Source of the DNA: Zygnema cylindricum
Lineage: Eukaryota; Streptophyta; Zygnematophyceae; Zygnematales; Zygnemataceae
DNA length: 64,000 nucleotides
Reading direction: 5' to 3'
NCBI GenBank assembly: GCA_037447655.1
Contig: JBBHKE010002582.1
Coordinates: 1 to 64,000, forward strand
Under the pieces are notes generated by a model. The model saw only the letters and a program-made list of their open reading frames with translations, was not told where the DNA came from and made no database searches. Within the stretch, counting starts at the first letter, position 1. Each line of letters begins with the position of its first letter. Made by a program: the position numbers and the translations under genes. Shown piece after piece: positions 5,328-61,349 of this stretch.

Positions 5328-5940
5328 CTACATCTCAATTTTTCCCAGGATTGTTCCTATAGCCTCATTTTGGGTTAACATTATTTGTTTCTTATTTCGA
5401 TCTCTTTCTACTTGTATCCATAAGATGTATTTAGCTTGACCGAGGTCTTTCATCTCAAATCTGGATTTTAAGGCTTCCTTAATACGGTTTATTTCATTTA
5501 TAGATTTGCTAATAAGCAGCAGATCATCTACATATACATCAATATAGAGTACACCATCCTCACCGTGCAAAACATACACCGAGTGATCTGAGCTGATTCT
5601 CTTAAAACCTAGTCCAGTTAGGAACTCCGTTGTCTATTGTCTGGGGGCTCGTTTAAGCCCATACAAAGATTTCATCAGTTTACAGATTAGTTTTTCCTTT
5701 CCTTTCTCTCCATACATTTATTGTTGTTGCATATGGATGGTTTTTTCAACCTCTCCATGAAGGAAAGTTGTTTTAACATCTATTTGATGTACTTCCATGT
5801 TTTCAATTGAAGCTAAACTTAATAAAATTTTGACAGTTGGAAACCTTACCACAAGAGAGAGTCTTCTCAAAGTCAATTCTTTCTTTCTAATTGTAGCATT
5901 TAGCCACAAGTTTTGTTTTGTATCTGTCAATGGTACCATC
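5328..5940 (-). pseudogene. copia reverse transcriptase fragments
   Basis: The frame 5328-5579 contains YIDVYVDDLLLISKS, the catalytic YVDD region of copia reverse transcriptase, followed by a FEMKDLGQAKYIL block. The frame near 5718-5920 contains VVRFPTVK and HQIDVKTTFLHGE, the conserved strand just upstream. The pieces are in different frames and include stops, so no polymerase can be made. The coding sense resumes at 7306 across an inserted element. Confidence 0.8.
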
Positions 5941-7305
5941 TGTTGTTTTTGAAAACTTAGTTTCGTGCGTACCGAGCGTTTCGTGCGTGCGCGTGTTCGC
6001 GTGCGTGCGCATTTACGCGATGTAGTGTGGAGGTTCGAATAGATTTGCGGATTGGGGAGTAAATGTACGAAGAAAATTAAATGTACGTGAAGGACTAATT
6101 GAGTGGCGCGGAATGCGCAATGTAAATGGACGGCGGATCGCGAAGCGATCCGATTTGAAATTTTCGAAGTGTGAAAATGTACGCATGGCGTACGAAACAA
6201 AATGCGACAAGCGCATTTATTACAAGGGACGCGCTTGCGGTACGAAAATGATTTCGGCTGTACGAGGTTTCGACAAGTGGATTTTTATGACCACGCGGCG
6301 CGACATCAAGGGTGCCGATTAAGAGCGACGGAGGGCGGATATAGGCCGCCGAGATTTTTATGTAGTGGTGACGCGAAATCGCGTCAATCACACGATATTT
6401 ATTTTTGGACGTTCCGGATTGTTTGACAAGTGATTCGTGGTACACGTGGAAGGTGGATGGCATCCGCCGATATTTCCAAGGGATCGTATTGTTTGATGAC
6501 GTGTTAATTAGGTGGACAGTACATATACGATGTCGGTTCACTACGTTGATTTATCTGCAAGTGACTAAGCAAGTTGTCGCTTATGACGCGTATTTTGCGG
6601 ACGCGTCGGTGTAAATATTTGAAACAATATTGTTTTGTCGTATGTGTATTATTAATTTAGTATTGATTATGACATTTTTATTTTAAGTGATCAATTAGGG
6701 TTTTCGATAGTGTAATTTGTGTGTGTACGATGTCGTATTTGCATACAAGTGTACGCTTACGATTGCTTGACTTTCAGGTGTACGCTTACGATTAGTTTGA
6801 TTTAATGACAGTTACGTAATTTACGTTGGTTATTTTGACACTTAGTGATTTGTTAACAGCTCACAAGTGTATATATAGATTTGAGCTTCATTAGAATAAT
6901 TAATCAATGCTGGTTAGTAAAGTGGGGACCGAAGATGTAGACTTTTAGGGTTGCCGATTAAGTTATGCACTTTGAATGATATAATGATTATTTGATTATA
7001 CTTTTGTTTATGTGTGATGCATTTGTTTGTTATTATTTATTTATGTTATTTTATATATGTTTGATATGCATTGTTTATGCATTTGTCCTAGGGTTTGTTT
7101 ATGTCGATTATTCCATCAAACCTTAGATGTTGTCATAGGGTTTATTTATGTTGATTATTCCATGAACCCTAAATGTTGTTTGTTGCGTCTGTGTACGCAT
7201 ATGGAGGATGCATTTCATATGATTGTTCGTCGACCTATTTTTGCTTAGCTTCTTGCATGATAGTTTGGGTGGCTTCTGCGGTTTATTTTAGACCAAAGAA
7301 CAACA
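5941..7305. mobile_element. solo-LTR-like insertion with target duplication
   Basis: The element begins TGTTGTTTTTG and ends AAAGAACAACA, giving the TG...CA ends of an LTR. The 5 bases on each side, CCATC and CCATT, match at four of five. Shifting the border by one base gives a perfect ACCAT pair. Removing the element brings the two halves of the copia reverse transcriptase back into one continuous sense. The interior has no pol-like coding, so a solo LTR is the simplest reading. A partial reverse-oriented copy lies at 11716-12215. Confidence 0.75.
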
Positions 7306-50025: not shown

Positions 50026-52246
50026 TTAGCCCATGGTTCTTCGTCGCCACGGGGAAACCATAAGATTGCGATATTGGATAAGATGAGGCAAATCTTGATC
50101 GCTCCAAGGACCCGTCCAGCCTCCGTCAATCACAAAACTAGCGTTCCATAGAGAAGCGTAGAGGAACACAGGTTTTACTGGGAATGTGGGAACGGAATTC
50201 TTTTGGACAACTCGTTTGACTTCATCGTCAACCAACCACCTGTCGAACCGTGAGAGGGAAACCGTCAAACGGTCAGCTATTGAAAGGAAAAAGGTAAGGT
50301 TTTAAATTTGTTCATCCTGATGGTTTTCACCACACTTGAGGTAAAACTTCAAAGATTCAAAGAGCTTATGATATCCAGGCTGTTATGAAGAGGTGTCCCA
50401 TATGATAATTGAGAGAGAGGGAGAGAGAAAAAAATAAAAAGGTAAAGAGTAAAACCATGTTGTGTTTGAGAGTGAATATCGTAGAGCCACTGAAGCTGCC
50501 TCCAAACCAAGAGAAAGAGGGAAAGCGGGAAAGAGGGAGAGAGAGAGAGAATCTTACGTGAGTGTAGTATTGGTATAACGAATGGTGTATTTATGGAATG
50601 CTTCCGAACAATCGAAGTCAAGGTTTAGGAACACCTCATTCCCTCCCACTCCGTTCACATAATAATTGGTTTGAACTCCCATTTTGTTGTATCCTAACCA
50701 CTCAAAGTCGATTTCGTCTTGCTCGGGGTACCCTTCCATGGAGGACAGCTGGACAGCCGAATGATTGGGATTACATTGTAAGATTTGGGAGGTTAACATT
50801 GTGGTTGAACATTGTGGACATTGGACGTTAGACATTGGACATTGAAGACATTGGCCATGCGATATGTGACGTTGAATGTTAGACATTGGAAATTAGACAT
50901 CGAGCATTCGAAATTATGCGTTGAACGTTAAGAATTAAACATTAGAAATTTCAAATCGGACATTGGACATTGAATATTAGATATAGAACATTAGACATTT
51001 GAAAATTGGAGCTTCGATGTTCAACATTGGACACTGGAAGTTGGACAATGGAGACATTGGACGTCGAAAACGGTCATAGGAAATTGGAAAGTAGGGTTTA
51101 GACACTATACGTCAAACATTGGATATTAGAACCGATTGTGGGTATTGATCATTAGATGTTAGACATGACAAATGTGACATTGGACATCATGTTAATATCC
51201 TCTTCATTACTGGAATTCAGCATCGGATTGTGAAAGAAAATTGCAGAAAACTATACTGACAATAACAAATGTCCAACTACAATAACAATTACATATGAGG
51301 CTTTTACAATGACAATGTAGAATTGCAATGACAATTTCATATATCTCAGGCGCTTAAAAGTGAACATACTAGAGCAATGAAAAGTGTTGATGGCTTTGAC
51401 CATTACTTAAATGCTTATACGTTTATTTAAGCTTAATATTAAAAAAATTCAAAAGACAGTCAATGTTAATCTAAAATTCTAACTTACATAGAGAGAAGAT
51501 AAAGCTCCACTGGTATTCCCCTCTGAGCATTTAAACTCTCCCGAAAATTCTCCATACTGGTAGTTACGAGTTGTACGAAATCGTCCACCTGTCCATTCTC
51601 TCCCAAACCATAAGTTTGATAAAGAAGACTTTCAACAACTGACAAAAAAAAAAAACATAAACAAAAAGTACTTCGACAACGAAAAAGGAAAAACCTTTCC
51701 CCAATGATTCTTACTAATTACTTCTATCAAATGAAGTATAAATTATTTTCGCTTGTAACTCACCGCATCCCGATTGGTCGAAAGTGATATTTGCCGCGTC
51801 ATTCAAAATCGATATTTTTTCGGCGCAATAATCGATTCCGAGGGGATAAACCGACGAGCTGGAAGTGACAGCTGGCAGAGAGGGAGGAGTAAGAAGAGGA
51901 GATAAACCGCTGACAGCATTAAATGTGGACGTCGCATTAGTGGGTATCACTATAGAAGACGAGGGAGAGGAGAGAGAGAGGTAGAGCTGGAGGAGAGTCC
52001 CAGGATAAGGAGTCGGACAAACCCATTGACGGTTGTCGTACATGTGGAGAACTTTGTTGTCCACTTTCCATCTGAAAACCCATTTGGACCCATGTACATG
52101 TAAGAAGAGATTCATAGGAGGAAAAGGTGACTTAAGGGTTTTGGGAGGTAAAGAGTGTGATGTGATGTGATATGGTGGAGAGGGAGAGAGAGGAAAGCAG
52201 GAAAATAAAATGGACAGAGAGAGAGAGGGAGAGGGAGAGAGAGAGA

Positions 52247-52297
<51 letters not shown>

Positions 52298-52586
52298 GTA
52301 CAAAATGACGTCGGGAGTCCAAAAAATAGTGTAGATGTGGGGCTCGAGAGAGCAGTCATAGTCGAGAGGCACGAGGAGAGTCCATGAATTCACCCCTCCC
52401 AAAATACTGCTAAGCTTCACATAGTGGCGATTGGAGTCCGGAAATTCCATTGTTATGGCCGTAAGGGAGGGAGAGGGAAAGGAATCGGAAGCCAACTGGA
52501 TGAAAAAAGAGAGAGAGGGAGCAGGAGGGAGGGGGAGAGATTTAGGAGGTGAGAGTGGAAGGCAAGCGAGTGAAAGGCTACATTAA

Positions 52587-52642
<56 letters not shown>

Positions 52643-53812
52643 GAAAAAAGAGGGGGAGAGAAGAGACTATCTCACATAAAATGCAGTAGTGAATCCAGCC
52701 GGAGGACAAGTGATATTCGCTGAAAATCTCCCGGAGGAAAAACTTTCCGCTGATTTCACTCGGGCACCTGGAGAGGCGTTCATAGAAATTTTAAGAAAAA
52801 AAAAAAAAACTCACTTTGGGATAAATTTTTCAGTTTTCCAAAGTTCATACATTCCTTTTATCCTACAGAAAAAAACACACAGACACACGCAGACACTTTT
52901 TGATCAATTTCCCCATAGACACATTTGTTTCTCATAAAAAAAAAAAAACATTCGGATTTGAAGAAAGGCCAATCGCATACCTGAGCCTGTGATTGGATCA
53001 AAATTGAGAAAATAATTGTTTCCTTGTTGAATCACATTACTGGGTCCGTAATCCATAATGGCTGTTTCCATGGGTGTCCCTGTTAAAGCATCTTTTATGA
53101 CCACATCTGTAGCCAACGAGTCCAAACAATACATCGTAAAATTTAAATTTTTTATGCCGGTTTCCACCTGGTTTTGTCCTTTATCTGTCGTCTCTGTTGA
53201 AATCTCCTGACCACACACCTGTACTTCCGTTAAAGCCCAACTTATTTTATTTCTCGCCTTCGCCACATTCCCCGTCTCCGAATTTTTTTCGGCTTTTGCG
53301 AGCATTTGAATCGTATCTCGCAAACTTTTGCGACAAATCGTCACGGAGTTCGCTAATTTTTGCGCCTCCGCAAGACTTGCGGAAATCTCATCAAAAACTG
53401 CCGAAAGATCTGACGCTGTTCGACAGTTCCAGAGCATTGAGTCCTCTGACGTGGATTTAGCTAATGGGATACTGCCACGTGGCAATGCTGACGTGGCATA
53501 TGATGTGGCACCGGCCAACGTCGATGCGCTACCCGTGTTTATCTGATTTGGGTTCCGATAGGTACTGCCACGTGGCGCAACTCCGTCGGTCCATTTGGGA
53601 TCGTGCGATCGAAAGCGGTTCATAGTGCTGGCAATGGCTAGTGCCACGTCAGCACTTGAGGCATGCTTGTTGGGTCGGAAGGAGGAGAGTTGGGGAGGAA
53701 GTTCCCACCAATTGTGGTTCGGGGGAAATGTAGTGTTTTGGAGTTGGGTAGAGGAGGAGAGGGAAAGGAATGTAGCGGAGAGAGAGAGAAAGAGGGCTAG
53801 AGAGGGAATCAT
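50026..53812 (-). CDS. secreted PMEI-like plus tandem GH16 protein
   Basis: Exons read on minus: 53812-52981, 52767-52676, 52495-52302, 52071-51764, 51588-51488, 50748-50558, 50239-50026. All introns are GT-AG and the frame joins to 643 codons. Residues 1-22 look like a signal peptide, so it should act in the wall. Residues 126-240 resemble a plant invertase/pectin methylesterase inhibitor fold, with Cys130, Cys160, Cys200 and Cys229 (a 40-residue spacing between the middle pair). Residues 243-430 form a first GH16 module with the GRFSANITCP...AFY and HIYTIFWTPD...VD blocks, but the active-site region reads TAITMEFP in place of DEIDFEFLG. Residues 476-643 form a second GH16 module with YGEF, QDEIDFEWLG (Glu521, Asp523, Glu525), VQTNYY, FHKYTIRY, WLVDD and YASLWNAS. 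GH16 enzymes cut or transfer beta-glucans or xyloglucan. The C-terminal module is XTH-like, but the substrate is unknown. I know no family with this full architecture. Confidence 0.85.
50790..51195. repeat. ACATTGGACATTG minisatellite in GH16 intron 5
   Basis: About 400 bases of degenerate ACATTGGACATTGGA phrases fill the end of intron 5 of the minus-strand GH16 gene. The plus-strand paralogue has the same kind of repeat (TCCAATGTCC, coding-strand sense) in the same intron at 60365-60545. Confidence 0.8.
52205..52296. repeat. GA/CT microsatellite in GH16 intron 3
   Basis: Nearly pure GA repeat on plus, CT on the coding strand, beginning right at the GTACGTCTCTCTC donor of exon 3. It is responsible for the long Ser/Leu reading frames on minus and Glu/Arg frames on plus. 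Confidence 0.95.
52580..52650. repeat. GA/CT microsatellite in GH16 intron 2
   Basis: About 25 GA dinucleotides on plus, with CT on the coding strand, roughly 25 bases after the exon 2 donor. Confidence 0.95.
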
Positions 53813-57061: not shown

Positions 57062-58394
57062 ATGACTTCCCTCCTCCTTCCCCTCTCTCTCGCTCTTCTC
57101 CTCTCACTTCCCCTCCTCTCCCTCTCCACCATTCTGCCACCCGTCTCTCTCGACCTCCCATGGTGGGCCCTCCCCTCTCCCCTCTCCTCCCTCCACCCCA
57201 AACCAAACTCCTCAAGTGCTGATGTGGCACTTGCAGCAGCCAGTACCATTTCCCGATTCCGTCCCTCTTCCTCCTTCCCCTCCCCAGCCAATCCTCAGCT
57301 GCCACGTGGACAAAAAAACCCACATACCCAATCAAACGCCTTAGTTTCCCCTAACGTGACACCTCCGCCACGTGTCCCTTCCCCATTGGCTGACGTCACT
57401 TCCCCGCCGTCGCCAACTGTCGCTCCGCCGTCGGCCGAAACGAACGGAACCGTACTGGGGAACTCCGTACTGGATCCGCTGACGTGGCAGTGTGAGAGTG
57501 GTTTAGATATTTTCTTTTTGTTCAACGAAACGTCGAAAAATATCGCGGCTGCCCAAGCTCGAAAAAGTCCGTTGAGAGGTTTAAAAATTTGCCGCCGGAG
57601 TTTAAAGACCGCGGCGAAGATTTTGAAAAATGTTAAAAACTTTTTGGATTCTGGGAATATGCCAAAAGCGAGAAATAAAATCCGCTGGACTTTGTCCGCG
57701 GTTCAGCGATGCGGTCAGGTGGTTTCAACAGAGATCAATTCAGCCCAGGAGATTTCAACAGAGAAGATTTCAAAAGTGGAGAGTCTAAGAGTGGAGAGAT
57801 TAAATTTGGGGAAATTGCATGTGGAAAATGCGGGAAGTAATTTGACTTCTATGTTACAATGTTTGGAAGATCTTGCGACGAATGTCGCCGTAAGTGATGC
57901 GTTGACGGGAGTTCCGTTGACTTCAGTTTTTACGGATTACGGAGCGGGAAATGTCTTACAACAAGGAAACAGTTTCACTCTCAGTTATAATCTAAGCACA
58001 GGAGAAGGTAAGGGGGGGAATTAAGTATGAGTGGAAATTAAGTCAATGGGGAATAGGGATATGGATTTTGTCTTTTTACGGAGATTAAGGTGGGTTATTT
58101 TGTTGGGTTTTTCACTTTTTTGTTATTTTTTCGTTTTTTTATGGGTATTTGTAGGCGTATAGGTTTTTCTCTTAATACTTCCAAAAAATTTCAGGGTCTT
58201 TCTGCTGTTGTTTTTTTTTGTTTTCTTGTATTTTACGTTTTCATGAAGTTTGGATTCATGGACGATAATTTTTTAGTTTTTTTTTTTTCTTTCCAGGTGC
58301 GAGAACTAAATCAGTGGACAGTTTTTCCTCGGGATAATTTTCAGCAAATATAACTTGTCCTCCGGCTGGGTTCACCACTGCTTTCTACGTAAGA

Positions 58395-58625
58395 TTCTCT
58401 CTCTCTCTCTCTCTCTCCCTCGCTCTTTCTCCTTCACTTTCCCTCTCTCCCGCTATCTTTCCTTCTCTATCTTTCACTTTCTTCCTCTCTCACTCTCTCT
58501 CTCGCTCTCACTCCTTCAGTTTCTGTTTTAACATTCTATTCTGGAAAGATTTTGTTGTCCTTGATTTCTGCCTCTCACTTACTCGCACTCTCCTCTCTCT
58601 CTCTCTCTCTCTCCCCCGCACTCTT
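58395..58625. repeat. CT-rich microsatellite, GH16 paralogue intron 2
   Basis: Starts right after the exon 2 donor (GTAAGATTCTCTCTC) and runs with interruptions to about 58620. It matches in position the CT tract in intron 2 of the minus-strand gene. Confidence 0.9.
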
Positions 58626-58889
58626 CCACAAATGACTTTAGATCTTGACCTCTAACACTATCTCTCTCCCTCCTCCCTCTTCCCCTCATAACCCAGTTGG
58701 CTACCGACTCCTCCTCTCTCTCCCCCTCCGCCATAACAATGGAGTTTCCGGCCTCCAATCGCCGCTATGTGAAGCTCGGCACTATTGTGAGTGGGCGGCC
58801 CGGATGGACTCTCCTCGTGCCTCTCAATACCGATTGCAATCTCGAGGCTCACATCTACAGTATTTAATGGACCCCCGATGTCATTTTGT

Positions 58890-59125
58890 AAGTCTCTCTC
58901 TCACGCTCTCTCTCTCTTTTTCTCTCTCTCTCCCTCTCTCTCTGTGTCAGTCTTTCTCTCTCTTTCTCTCTCTTTCTCTCTCTTTCTCTTTCTTTCTCTC
59001 TTTCTCTCTCTTTTTTTCTCTCTCTCTCTCTCGCTCTCCCTCTCTCTCTCTCTTTCTCCTCTCCTCTCCTCTCCTCTCCTCTCCTCTCCCCTCCTCTCCT
59101 TTCCTCCCGCTATCTCTCTCTCTGT
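58890..59125. repeat. CT-rich microsatellite, GH16 paralogue intron 3
   Basis: Follows the exon 3 donor (GTAAGTCTCTCTCTC) and includes a CTCTCCTCTCCTCTC pentamer stretch near 59055-59100. It matches the position of the tract at 52205-52296 in the partner gene. Confidence 0.9.
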
Positions 59126-60364
59126 TTCTTTTCCTCAATATCACATTGCGTGCCTTCCTTTTCAAAAATATCTCACAGCTTTTGTTCTTCCCTAATAAAT
59201 GAATTTACACGGGTTCAAATGGGTTTTCAGATGGAAAATGGACAACAAAGTTCTCCACATGTACGACAACCGTCTCTGGGAATGTCCCTCTCCTCCTCCT
59301 GGCACTCTCCTCAATCTCTACCTCTCCCTCTCCCCTCCCTCGTCCTCCATCCTCACACCCATCAATGCCTCATCCACATTTAATCTCGTGAGCTTCCTAT
59401 CGCCCCAACTTTCTCCTCCCTCTCTGCCAGCTGTCACTTCCAGCTCGTCGGTTTATCCCCTTGGAATCGATTATTGCACCGAAAAAATATCGATTTTGAA
59501 TGACGCGGCAAATATCACTTTCGACCAATCAGGATGCGGTGAGTGACAAACTGGACTTGAAAGTGTTTTAATTTTAAGGAAAAAGGTGGAATTTTACACC
59601 TCCCTCTCCTTTTTATTGAGAATAATGGATAAGTTGCTAAAAGAATGGGAGTTACGCCTGTTTTGAATAGTGTTAAAACAAGATTTTTTACCAAGGCAGA
59701 TTTGATACAACGAGTAGTGAATTGGTGTGGATTTTCAATCGAAAAAGTCTTTTGTAAGGTTTCTCAAAAATCTACAGAAATGTTTTACCCTTTTCATTAT
59801 GTTGTGGTAAAGTAAAATCATGATTTTATACTTGGTCGAATGATTTTTTGTACTTGAGAAAACAGTAAATTATTTACTTTATAATTAATGTGCTCCGTAC
59901 AAGCTAAGGTGGGATTTTAAGCGAATTATACAACTTTTGTGAAAGTAGTATGATGCATAGTGGAATGGCTGAAAATTGTGGATGGGATGTCGGTAGTAGA
60001 GGAAAAGTTAAATCCACGACTGATTGTAATTGAAATCTTTTGAAATAGCCATGAATGTTTCTTTTCTTGCTGGAGATTTTTTTTGGAGCATTCAGTGGAT
60101 TAATTCAGCTTGTGTATTTCGGGAGAGGTCTCAGGTGGACGATTTCGCACAGCTCGCAACTACAAGTATGGAGAATTTTTGGGAGAGTTTAAGTGTGCAG
60201 ATGGCAATACTAGTGGAGCATTGTCTTCTTTCTATGTAAGAAATAGTCGAGTTCATGTTTTTGAATGATTACTTTTCTAATTCTAGTTGTTTCAATAACG
60301 ATGCTTGAACACGTTAATATCATTTGCATACAATTTCTTATCCAATGTTGTGTTAAAATCTTCG

Positions 60365-60545
60365 TCCAATGTCCAATGTCCAAAGTGTAATGTCATGTGT
60401 CATATGTCAAGTGTCCAATGACCAATGTCTAATGTACATTTTCCATTTTTTATTTTTCAATTTGTGGTTCAATGTCCAATGTCCAATTTTTGGTGTCCAT
60501 TGCCAATTTCTAGTGCTTAATGTTTGATACCTATGCCCAATACTC
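60365..60545. repeat. TCCAATG minisatellite in paralogue intron 5
   Basis: Degenerate copies of GTCCAATGTCCAATG and relatives lie in the same intron as the repeat of the minus-strand gene, ending about 65 bases before the exon 6 acceptor. It is shorter than the partner array. Confidence 0.8.
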
Positions 60546-60837
60546 CATATCCTACTCCCAATTTCTAAACGCACGAATGCTAACACAATCCTCTTTCTTT
60601 CCGTGTCCAGCTGTCCTCCATGGAGGGATACCCTTCACAGGATGAGATTGACTTTGAGTGGTTAGGAAACAACAAAATGGGTGTTCAAACCAATTATTAT
60701 GTGAATGGAGTTGGAGGGAATGAGGTGTTCCTGTCCCTCGGATTTGACTGCTCTGAAGCCTTTCATAAATACACCATTCGCTATACCGAGTCCACTATCA
60801 CGTAAGAATTCTCTTTCTCACTCTCCTCTAACTCTCT

Positions 60838-60838
60838 G

Positions 60839-60895
<57 letters not shown>

Positions 60896-60902
60896 TCTCC
60901 CC
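60838..60902. repeat. CT microsatellite, GH16 paralogue intron 6
   Basis: A CT run of about 25 units beginning about 40 bases after the exon 6 donor at 60802. The partner gene has a GA tract (CT on the coding strand) at the matching place, 50530-50550, and more at 50405-50425. Confidence 0.9.
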
Positions 60903-61349
60903 TCCCTCATGAACATACGCACTTTTTACCATCACTTAGGACACTTTTCCACCACGTCTCCTGTGCTCTTTACATTTTTTGAACAATTCAAGGATGATTA
61001 CAATACCAGACAAATTCATGGTTGTCGGATTCAAAAGTATCTTCACGTTTCTCAAACCTGCCAATTGATTTGCTTCCCACATACCTCCCTCTTATCAAGT
61101 CTCAATCCTAATATAAACTCTCTCCTATGTCTTTCCAGCTGGCTGGTCGATGATCAAGTGGAACGCATTGTCGAAAAAGACTTAGTTCCGACATTCCCCG
61201 TAAAATCGATGTTTCTTTACGCTTCTTTGTGGAACGCCAGTTTTGTTCTTGATGGAGGCTGGTCGGGAAAGTGGAGTGACCAAGATTTGCCTCATCTTAT
61301 TCAGTATCGCGATATGAGGGTTTCTCCGTTGCCAAGTACCATGGCTTGA

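Follow-up and report, generated by a model that had tools for sequence, protein, structure and literature searches.

Gene A occupies positions 53812 to 50026, on the minus strand, of a 64-kb stretch of Zygnema cylindricum DNA (contig JBBHKE010002582.1, positions 1 to 64,000), the whole of which is referred to here as the window. It encodes a multi-domain protein in which a hydrophobic N-terminus is followed by a linker, a four-helix region, a first glycoside hydrolase family 16 (GH16) module that lacks the nucleophile (module 1), and a second GH16 module with the motif DEIDFE (module 2). Re-splicing yields seven exons and a single 643-codon frame followed by a stop, which matches the coordinates, exon count and exact length given in the initial annotation. 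Each of the six introns has GT-AG ends, and the reading frame is free of internal stops and frameshifts, with every splice site intact. The acceptors of exons 5 and 7 were fixed by comparison with a neighboring paralogue, gene B, and with the repeated GH16 pattern. These junctions are not arbitrary, because gene B splits at equivalent places and the intron phases repeat between the two modules.

Exon 1 (52981..53812, minus strand like all that follow) holds the signal-peptide-like start, a low-confidence linker, the four-helix region and the first strands of module 1, as placed from the splicing and the predicted helices. The hydrophobic N-terminus corresponds to a predicted helix at residues 4–19, and residues 20–56 and 64–127 of the long linker mostly have a predicted local distance difference test score (pLDDT) below 50. 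Further helices are predicted at residues 53–69, 133–153, 158–179, 183–207 and 210–235. Module 1 (residues ~244–433; 51891..53083 including introns) takes up the end of exon 1, exons 2 (52676..52767) and 3 (52302..52495), and the start of exon 4 (51764..52071), which continues through a linker into module 2. The remainder of exon 4 and exons 5 (51488..51588), 6 (50558..50748) and 7 (50026..50239, with the stop) encode module 2 (residues ~440–636; 50050..51872 including introns). About 435 residues thus lie ahead of module 2. Long GA/CT-rich simple repeats occur within the gene A introns (window positions 50409–52660), and CT-rich introns are likewise present in gene B and some other paralogues.

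Pfam finds GH16 twice in gene A, which bears out the earlier proposal of a dead GH16 module, with TAITMEF at the active site, followed by an intact one (DEIDFEW) in the same gene. Taken alone, module 2 matches PF00722 with an E-value of 1.9e-39. Its DEIDFE motif (residues 520–525; 50701..50718, exon 6) is kept in all 16 sequences compared, and from the roles usual in GH16 we take Glu521 to be the nucleophile, Glu525 the acid/base and Asp523 the middle aspartate. The nearest solved structure is VvEG16 (E 1.9e-51), far ahead of the xyloglucan endotransglycosylase (XET) structure 1umz (E 5.3e-19). No XET_C domain (PF06955) appears among the gene A Pfam matches at E-values up to 1, and only about nine residues extend beyond the stretch aligned to VvEG16. 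XTHs (GH16_20) share with gene A the GH16 jelly roll, secretion and action on the wall, but carry a C-terminal XET_C domain according to a passage of PMC6827312. An XTH identity is rejected, because the XET_C match is missing and VvEG16 is the closest structure; module 2 is instead of the EG16 type.

Like EG16 (VvEG16; PDB 5DZE, 5DZF, 5DZG and 5SV8), which is its best solved match, module 2 is a GH16 domain with an ExDxE motif and no XET_C. The solved VvEG16 chains, however, comprise 207–209 residues and a single module, whereas gene A has two further parts upstream, the helical bundle and the dead GH16 module. The model of a fern relative likewise contains a helical bundle and two β-sandwiches, with its module 2 lying within 0.9 Å of VvEG16 over 193 residues. 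By their titles, the VvEG16 structures include complexes with cellotetraose and with mixed-linkage and xyloglucan oligosaccharides, and PtEG16 is described in a passage of PMC4950035 as hydrolyzing cello-oligosaccharides, mixed-linkage glucan and xyloglucan. By analogy, the best guess for module 2 is an endo-glucanase with a breadth like that of PtEG16.

The layout of gene A was at first thought to be a new architecture, a view that does not hold, since the same domain order occurs in paralogues of this genome and in a Closterium, a moss and a fern. A protein search in which scoring was limited to the 7993 candidates with the most words in common with the query returned 16 matches, 11 of which carry two GH16 modules in tandem, the first of them dead. 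These 11 come from the fern Adiantum nelumboides (P0003), the moss Ceratodon purpureus (P0005), Closterium NIES-68 (P0008) and Closterium NIES-54 (P0013); four more are alike to the moss protein (P0001, P0004, P0007, P0012), a cut one is alike to the fern protein (P0010), and the last two are a transcript (P0006) and a cut record (P0011) whose gene name follows the pattern used for Spirogloea. Two grass proteins (P0002 and P0009) have the motif in both modules, and P0014–P0016 are distant. The NIES-54 protein has a different N-terminus, for which Pfam makes no call and which by eye looks similar to a DUF642-like region. Searching with gene A residues 120–440 produced a single record (P0017). 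A family-alignment search at an E-value of 1e-10 returned nothing even though the family's own members are in that database, and this result is not read as absence.

Within the source genome (352.8 Mb in 2689 contigs), 56 exon-level GH16 matches were found. The linker exon that joins modules 1 and 2 is present in 17 of the 30 loci fetched, genes A and B among them; together with the relatives in other species, this count excludes an architecture unique to gene A. The layout is common to several streptophytes and is probably old. Longer stretches were read for ten paralogues (L031–L036 and L040–L043), two degraded copies of gene B (L037 and L038) and one other GH16 pair (L039). One paralogue (L041, contig C1462) has a lysine at the position of the module 2 acid/base glutamate, and both of its GH16 modules may be inactive. 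Another (L043) has a stop within the linker exon, for L042 no N-terminal region and no module 1 motif could be recovered, and a further intron seems, by eye, to split the helical region of L032, L033 and L041. The L039 pair, on the window's own contig (C1939, 172500–182400), is an inverted arrangement of another GH16 gene type, with the motif exon QDEIDFEWLG.

The helical bundle (residues 129–235; 53108..53428) has a predicted fold that resembles that of the pectin methylesterase inhibitor (PMEI)/invertase-inhibitor family. The four cysteines of the helical region noted previously were located at Cys130, Cys160, Cys200 and Cys229. The bundle is a predicted four-helix structure, for which Foldseek searches of the PDB place Arabidopsis PMEI in the top five ranks and PMEI or invertase inhibitors in nine of the twelve first places, with a designed bundle scoring nearly as high. 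Two cysteines, spaced 38–41 residues apart, are invariant in all 14 N-termini aligned; in gene A, these are Cys160 and Cys200, which fall in helices 2 and 3 of the predicted model and form a candidate disulfide pair. As described in part of a review (PMC6213510), PMEIs have a bridge between helices 2 and 3, where the invariant pair is positioned, and a second disulfide within an N-terminal anchor of short helices. Gene A has no cysteine before residue 130, and this anchor disulfide is therefore missing.

PMEI is the best match of the gene A N-terminal part in both Pfam and NCBIfam, below the cut-off in each: PF04043 matches gene A with an E-value of 3.3e-4 and the N-terminal part at 21.3–22.9 bits against a gathering cut-off of 29, and TIGR01614 scores 16.3 against 35.95. 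A weak match between the family profile and kiwi PMEI is in register, with the first cysteine of the pair on a PMEI cysteine. PDB sequence searches returned nothing with the gene A N-terminal region and nothing significant with the family profile. A genome search with PF04043 gave no match, not even to gene A itself, so PMEI absence cannot be inferred from it. The PMEI-like region of the initial annotation is retained as to its predicted fold. A pectin-related role is unsupported because the scores fall below the PMEI cut-offs, the anchor disulfide is missing and no pectinesterase match was found. The bundle shares with PMEI/invertase inhibitors (PF04043) and PMEI-PME proteins the predicted four-helix fold, a cysteine pair in the predicted helices 2 and 3 and a position N-terminal to a wall enzyme, but it differs in lacking the anchor disulfide, in scoring below the cut-off and in being joined to GH16 rather than to a pectinesterase.

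An alternative that retains considerable plausibility, though we would not expect it to prevail, treats the helical region as a four-helix bundle of generic type, similar to PMEI in appearance only and serving as a spacer for secretion or folding, with no kinship to that family. The near-equal score of the designed bundle fits this explanation. Against it stand the predominance of PMEI and invertase inhibitors among the first Foldseek places (including ranks 1–5), the standing of PMEI as best profile match, the invariance and spacing of the cysteine pair, and the register of the kiwi PMEI match.

Module 1 retains a recognizable GH16 domain (PF00722 E 6.7e-15 when taken alone) that is catalytically dead. 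In its TAITMEF motif (residues 320–326; 52442..52462), alignment with module 2 places Ala321 at the nucleophile position and Thr323 at the middle aspartate, while the acid/base Glu325 is kept. Both the nucleophile and the middle aspartate are lost in module 1 of all 16 sequences compared, with many fold residues kept. Module 1 may have a binding role; besides the catalytic positions, the gene A copy has lost further residues that are invariably present in module 2. Introns of phase 1, 0 and 2 in module 1 recur as 1, 0 and 2 at equivalent places of module 2, and because three introns coincide in place and phase, the GH16 module appears to have been duplicated together with its introns. In the tree, all 16 module 1 rows lie on one side of a branch with weak support (73/37), and a lineage-wise grouping of modules 1 and 2 is not rejected by the approximately unbiased test (p-AU 0.081 for this genome and 0.132 for land plants). 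One ancient duplication and separate duplications are both compatible with these results. Within the module 1 part of the tree, the rows of this genome join P0006 and the Closterium P0008 with support of 99/97, a placement that points to a zygnematophyte alga.

Module 1 of the paralogues shows signs of purifying selection. The ratio of nonsynonymous to synonymous substitution rates (dN/dS) is 0.155 and 0.233 for the module 1 parts of two paralogue pairs, in which module 2 gives 0.102 and 0.110. A third pair has a module 1 value of 0.086, which is given less weight since its synonymous divergence (dS 2.45) is near saturation.

Gene B (57062–61349, plus strand) lies head to head with gene A, of which it is a divergent paralogue, and matches it in its seven exons and in the order of its domains. 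Its frame is interrupted by a TAA in exon 2 (58335–58337, codon 329) and another in exon 3 (58865–58867, codon 403), with none in the other exons; both stops fall inside module 1. The plain reading of this sequence is that gene B is a pseudogene. Between genes A and B, dN/dS is 0.22 for the helical region (saturated, dS 2.2), 0.39 for module 1 and 0.12 for module 2. Their synonymous divergence is patchy, at 0.31–0.45 in exons 3–5 and 0.87–1.75 in the remaining exons, and this pattern, lowest in exons 3–5, suggests gene conversion. A 95% copy of gene B on contig C1755 (L031) has the exon 3 stop in common with it, lacks the exon 2 stop and carries a one-base insertion in exon 1; the two more degraded copies, L037 and L038, lie on the same contig. 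Gene B and L031 differ by 0–1.6% in exons 3–7, by 0–1.4% in five of the six introns and by 8.5% in the other. Exons 1 and 2 differ by 4.9% and 4.3%, respectively, with 15, 7 and 24 differences at codon positions 1, 2 and 3 of exon 1. Elsewhere in the window, an open stretch on the minus strand (5721–6284) looks by eye like a fragment of a Copia-type polyprotein, and Rfam and tRNA scans of the 64 kb were empty.

The state of gene B and its copies raises the prospect that gene A is decaying in the same way and that its dead module 1, which is shortened, is a remnant in the course of being lost. The two stops of gene B, the insertion and exon 3 stop of its C1755 copy and the two further degraded copies all fit such a course. 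It is nonetheless unlikely, given that gene A itself has an uninterrupted frame and intact splice sites, that low dN/dS values (0.16 and 0.23, rounded) are found in other paralogues for the module 1 parts, and that module 1 is present in the moss, fern and Closterium records.

Another explanation, and one that we consider improbable, holds that exons 2–4 are optional and that alternative splicing yields either a longer product that includes module 1 or a shorter one made of the bundle and a single GH16 module. Exons 2–4 begin and end in phase 1, so that skipping them would remove 594 nt in gene A and 591 nt in gene B in frame, and the internal stops of gene B fall only in exons 2 and 3. In-frame skipping is no evidence by itself, because it follows automatically when a module duplicates with its introns, and gene B shows no clear exon constraint relative to its copy. 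That the bundle is a true pectin methylesterase (PME) or invertase inhibitor carried on a glucanase, as its modeled fold might suggest, is very improbable in view of the missing anchor disulfide, of the absence of a PF01095 pectinesterase match in the genome (a search that was positive in four of 14 control genomes and that a many-exon gene could escape), and of a passage in PMC11096116 listing CE8 among the families missing wholly or in part from Zygnema.

The explanation that we consider probable is that gene A encodes a secreted EG16-type endo-β-glucanase, likely of the EG16-2 group, with a working module 2, a dead module 1 that has been kept, and a PMEI-like bundle that acts in cis. As judged from EG16 relatives, module 2 would act in the wall by cutting β-1,4-linked glucan backbones such as xyloglucan and mixed-linkage glucan, using the GH16 retaining double-displacement mechanism, with Glu521 as putative nucleophile and Glu525 as putative acid/base. 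Module 1 would derive from the duplicated GH16 module and its introns and, having lost the nucleophile and the middle aspartate, would have been kept as a folded non-catalytic module that may position the enzyme or pack against module 2; weak glucan binding is also possible. By analogy with PMEI-PME proteins, whose PMEI-like part is considered to act in this way on its own enzyme, the N-terminal bundle, whose fold is a prediction, may influence in cis how the glucanase folds, is secreted or works, and would not be an inhibitor of pectin methylesterase.

Gene A probably belongs to the EG16-2 group. According to Behar, Graham and Brumer (2018), this group is reportedly marked by an extended N-terminus, and an N-terminal extension ahead of the EG16 module is present in gene A. 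EG16-2 occurs in charophyte algae and is discussed as an intermediate linking the GH16 enzymes of bacteria to the XTHs of plants in a passage of PMC9569819. In two papers that name EG16-2, this one included, the passage concerned is silent on what the N-terminal extension is. A literature search for EG16, moss and N-terminal extension found no paper, and one for PMEI, GH16 and fusion gave titles on other matters only. The fresh point looks to be the content of the extension, a predicted PMEI-fold-like bundle and a pseudo-GH16 module without a nucleophile in all 16 sequences.

If the bundle is kin to PMEI, finding it in Closterium NIES-68 and in the present genome would push the known occurrence of this fold further back. 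If the extension consists of a PMEI-fold bundle and a conserved pseudoenzyme, then a multi-domain and perhaps self-regulated glucanase would predate land plants and may represent an older home for the PMEI fold. A bolder version, which we put forward tentatively and regard as rather doubtful, is that streptophyte algae used the PMEI fold as a partner of a GH16 glucanase and its pseudo-GH16 module before the PMEI-PME fusions and free PMEIs of land plants arose. Gene A would then belong to an ancient self-regulated wall glucanase, extending from zygnematophytes to mosses and ferns, that could be the source or the sister of the PMEI family.
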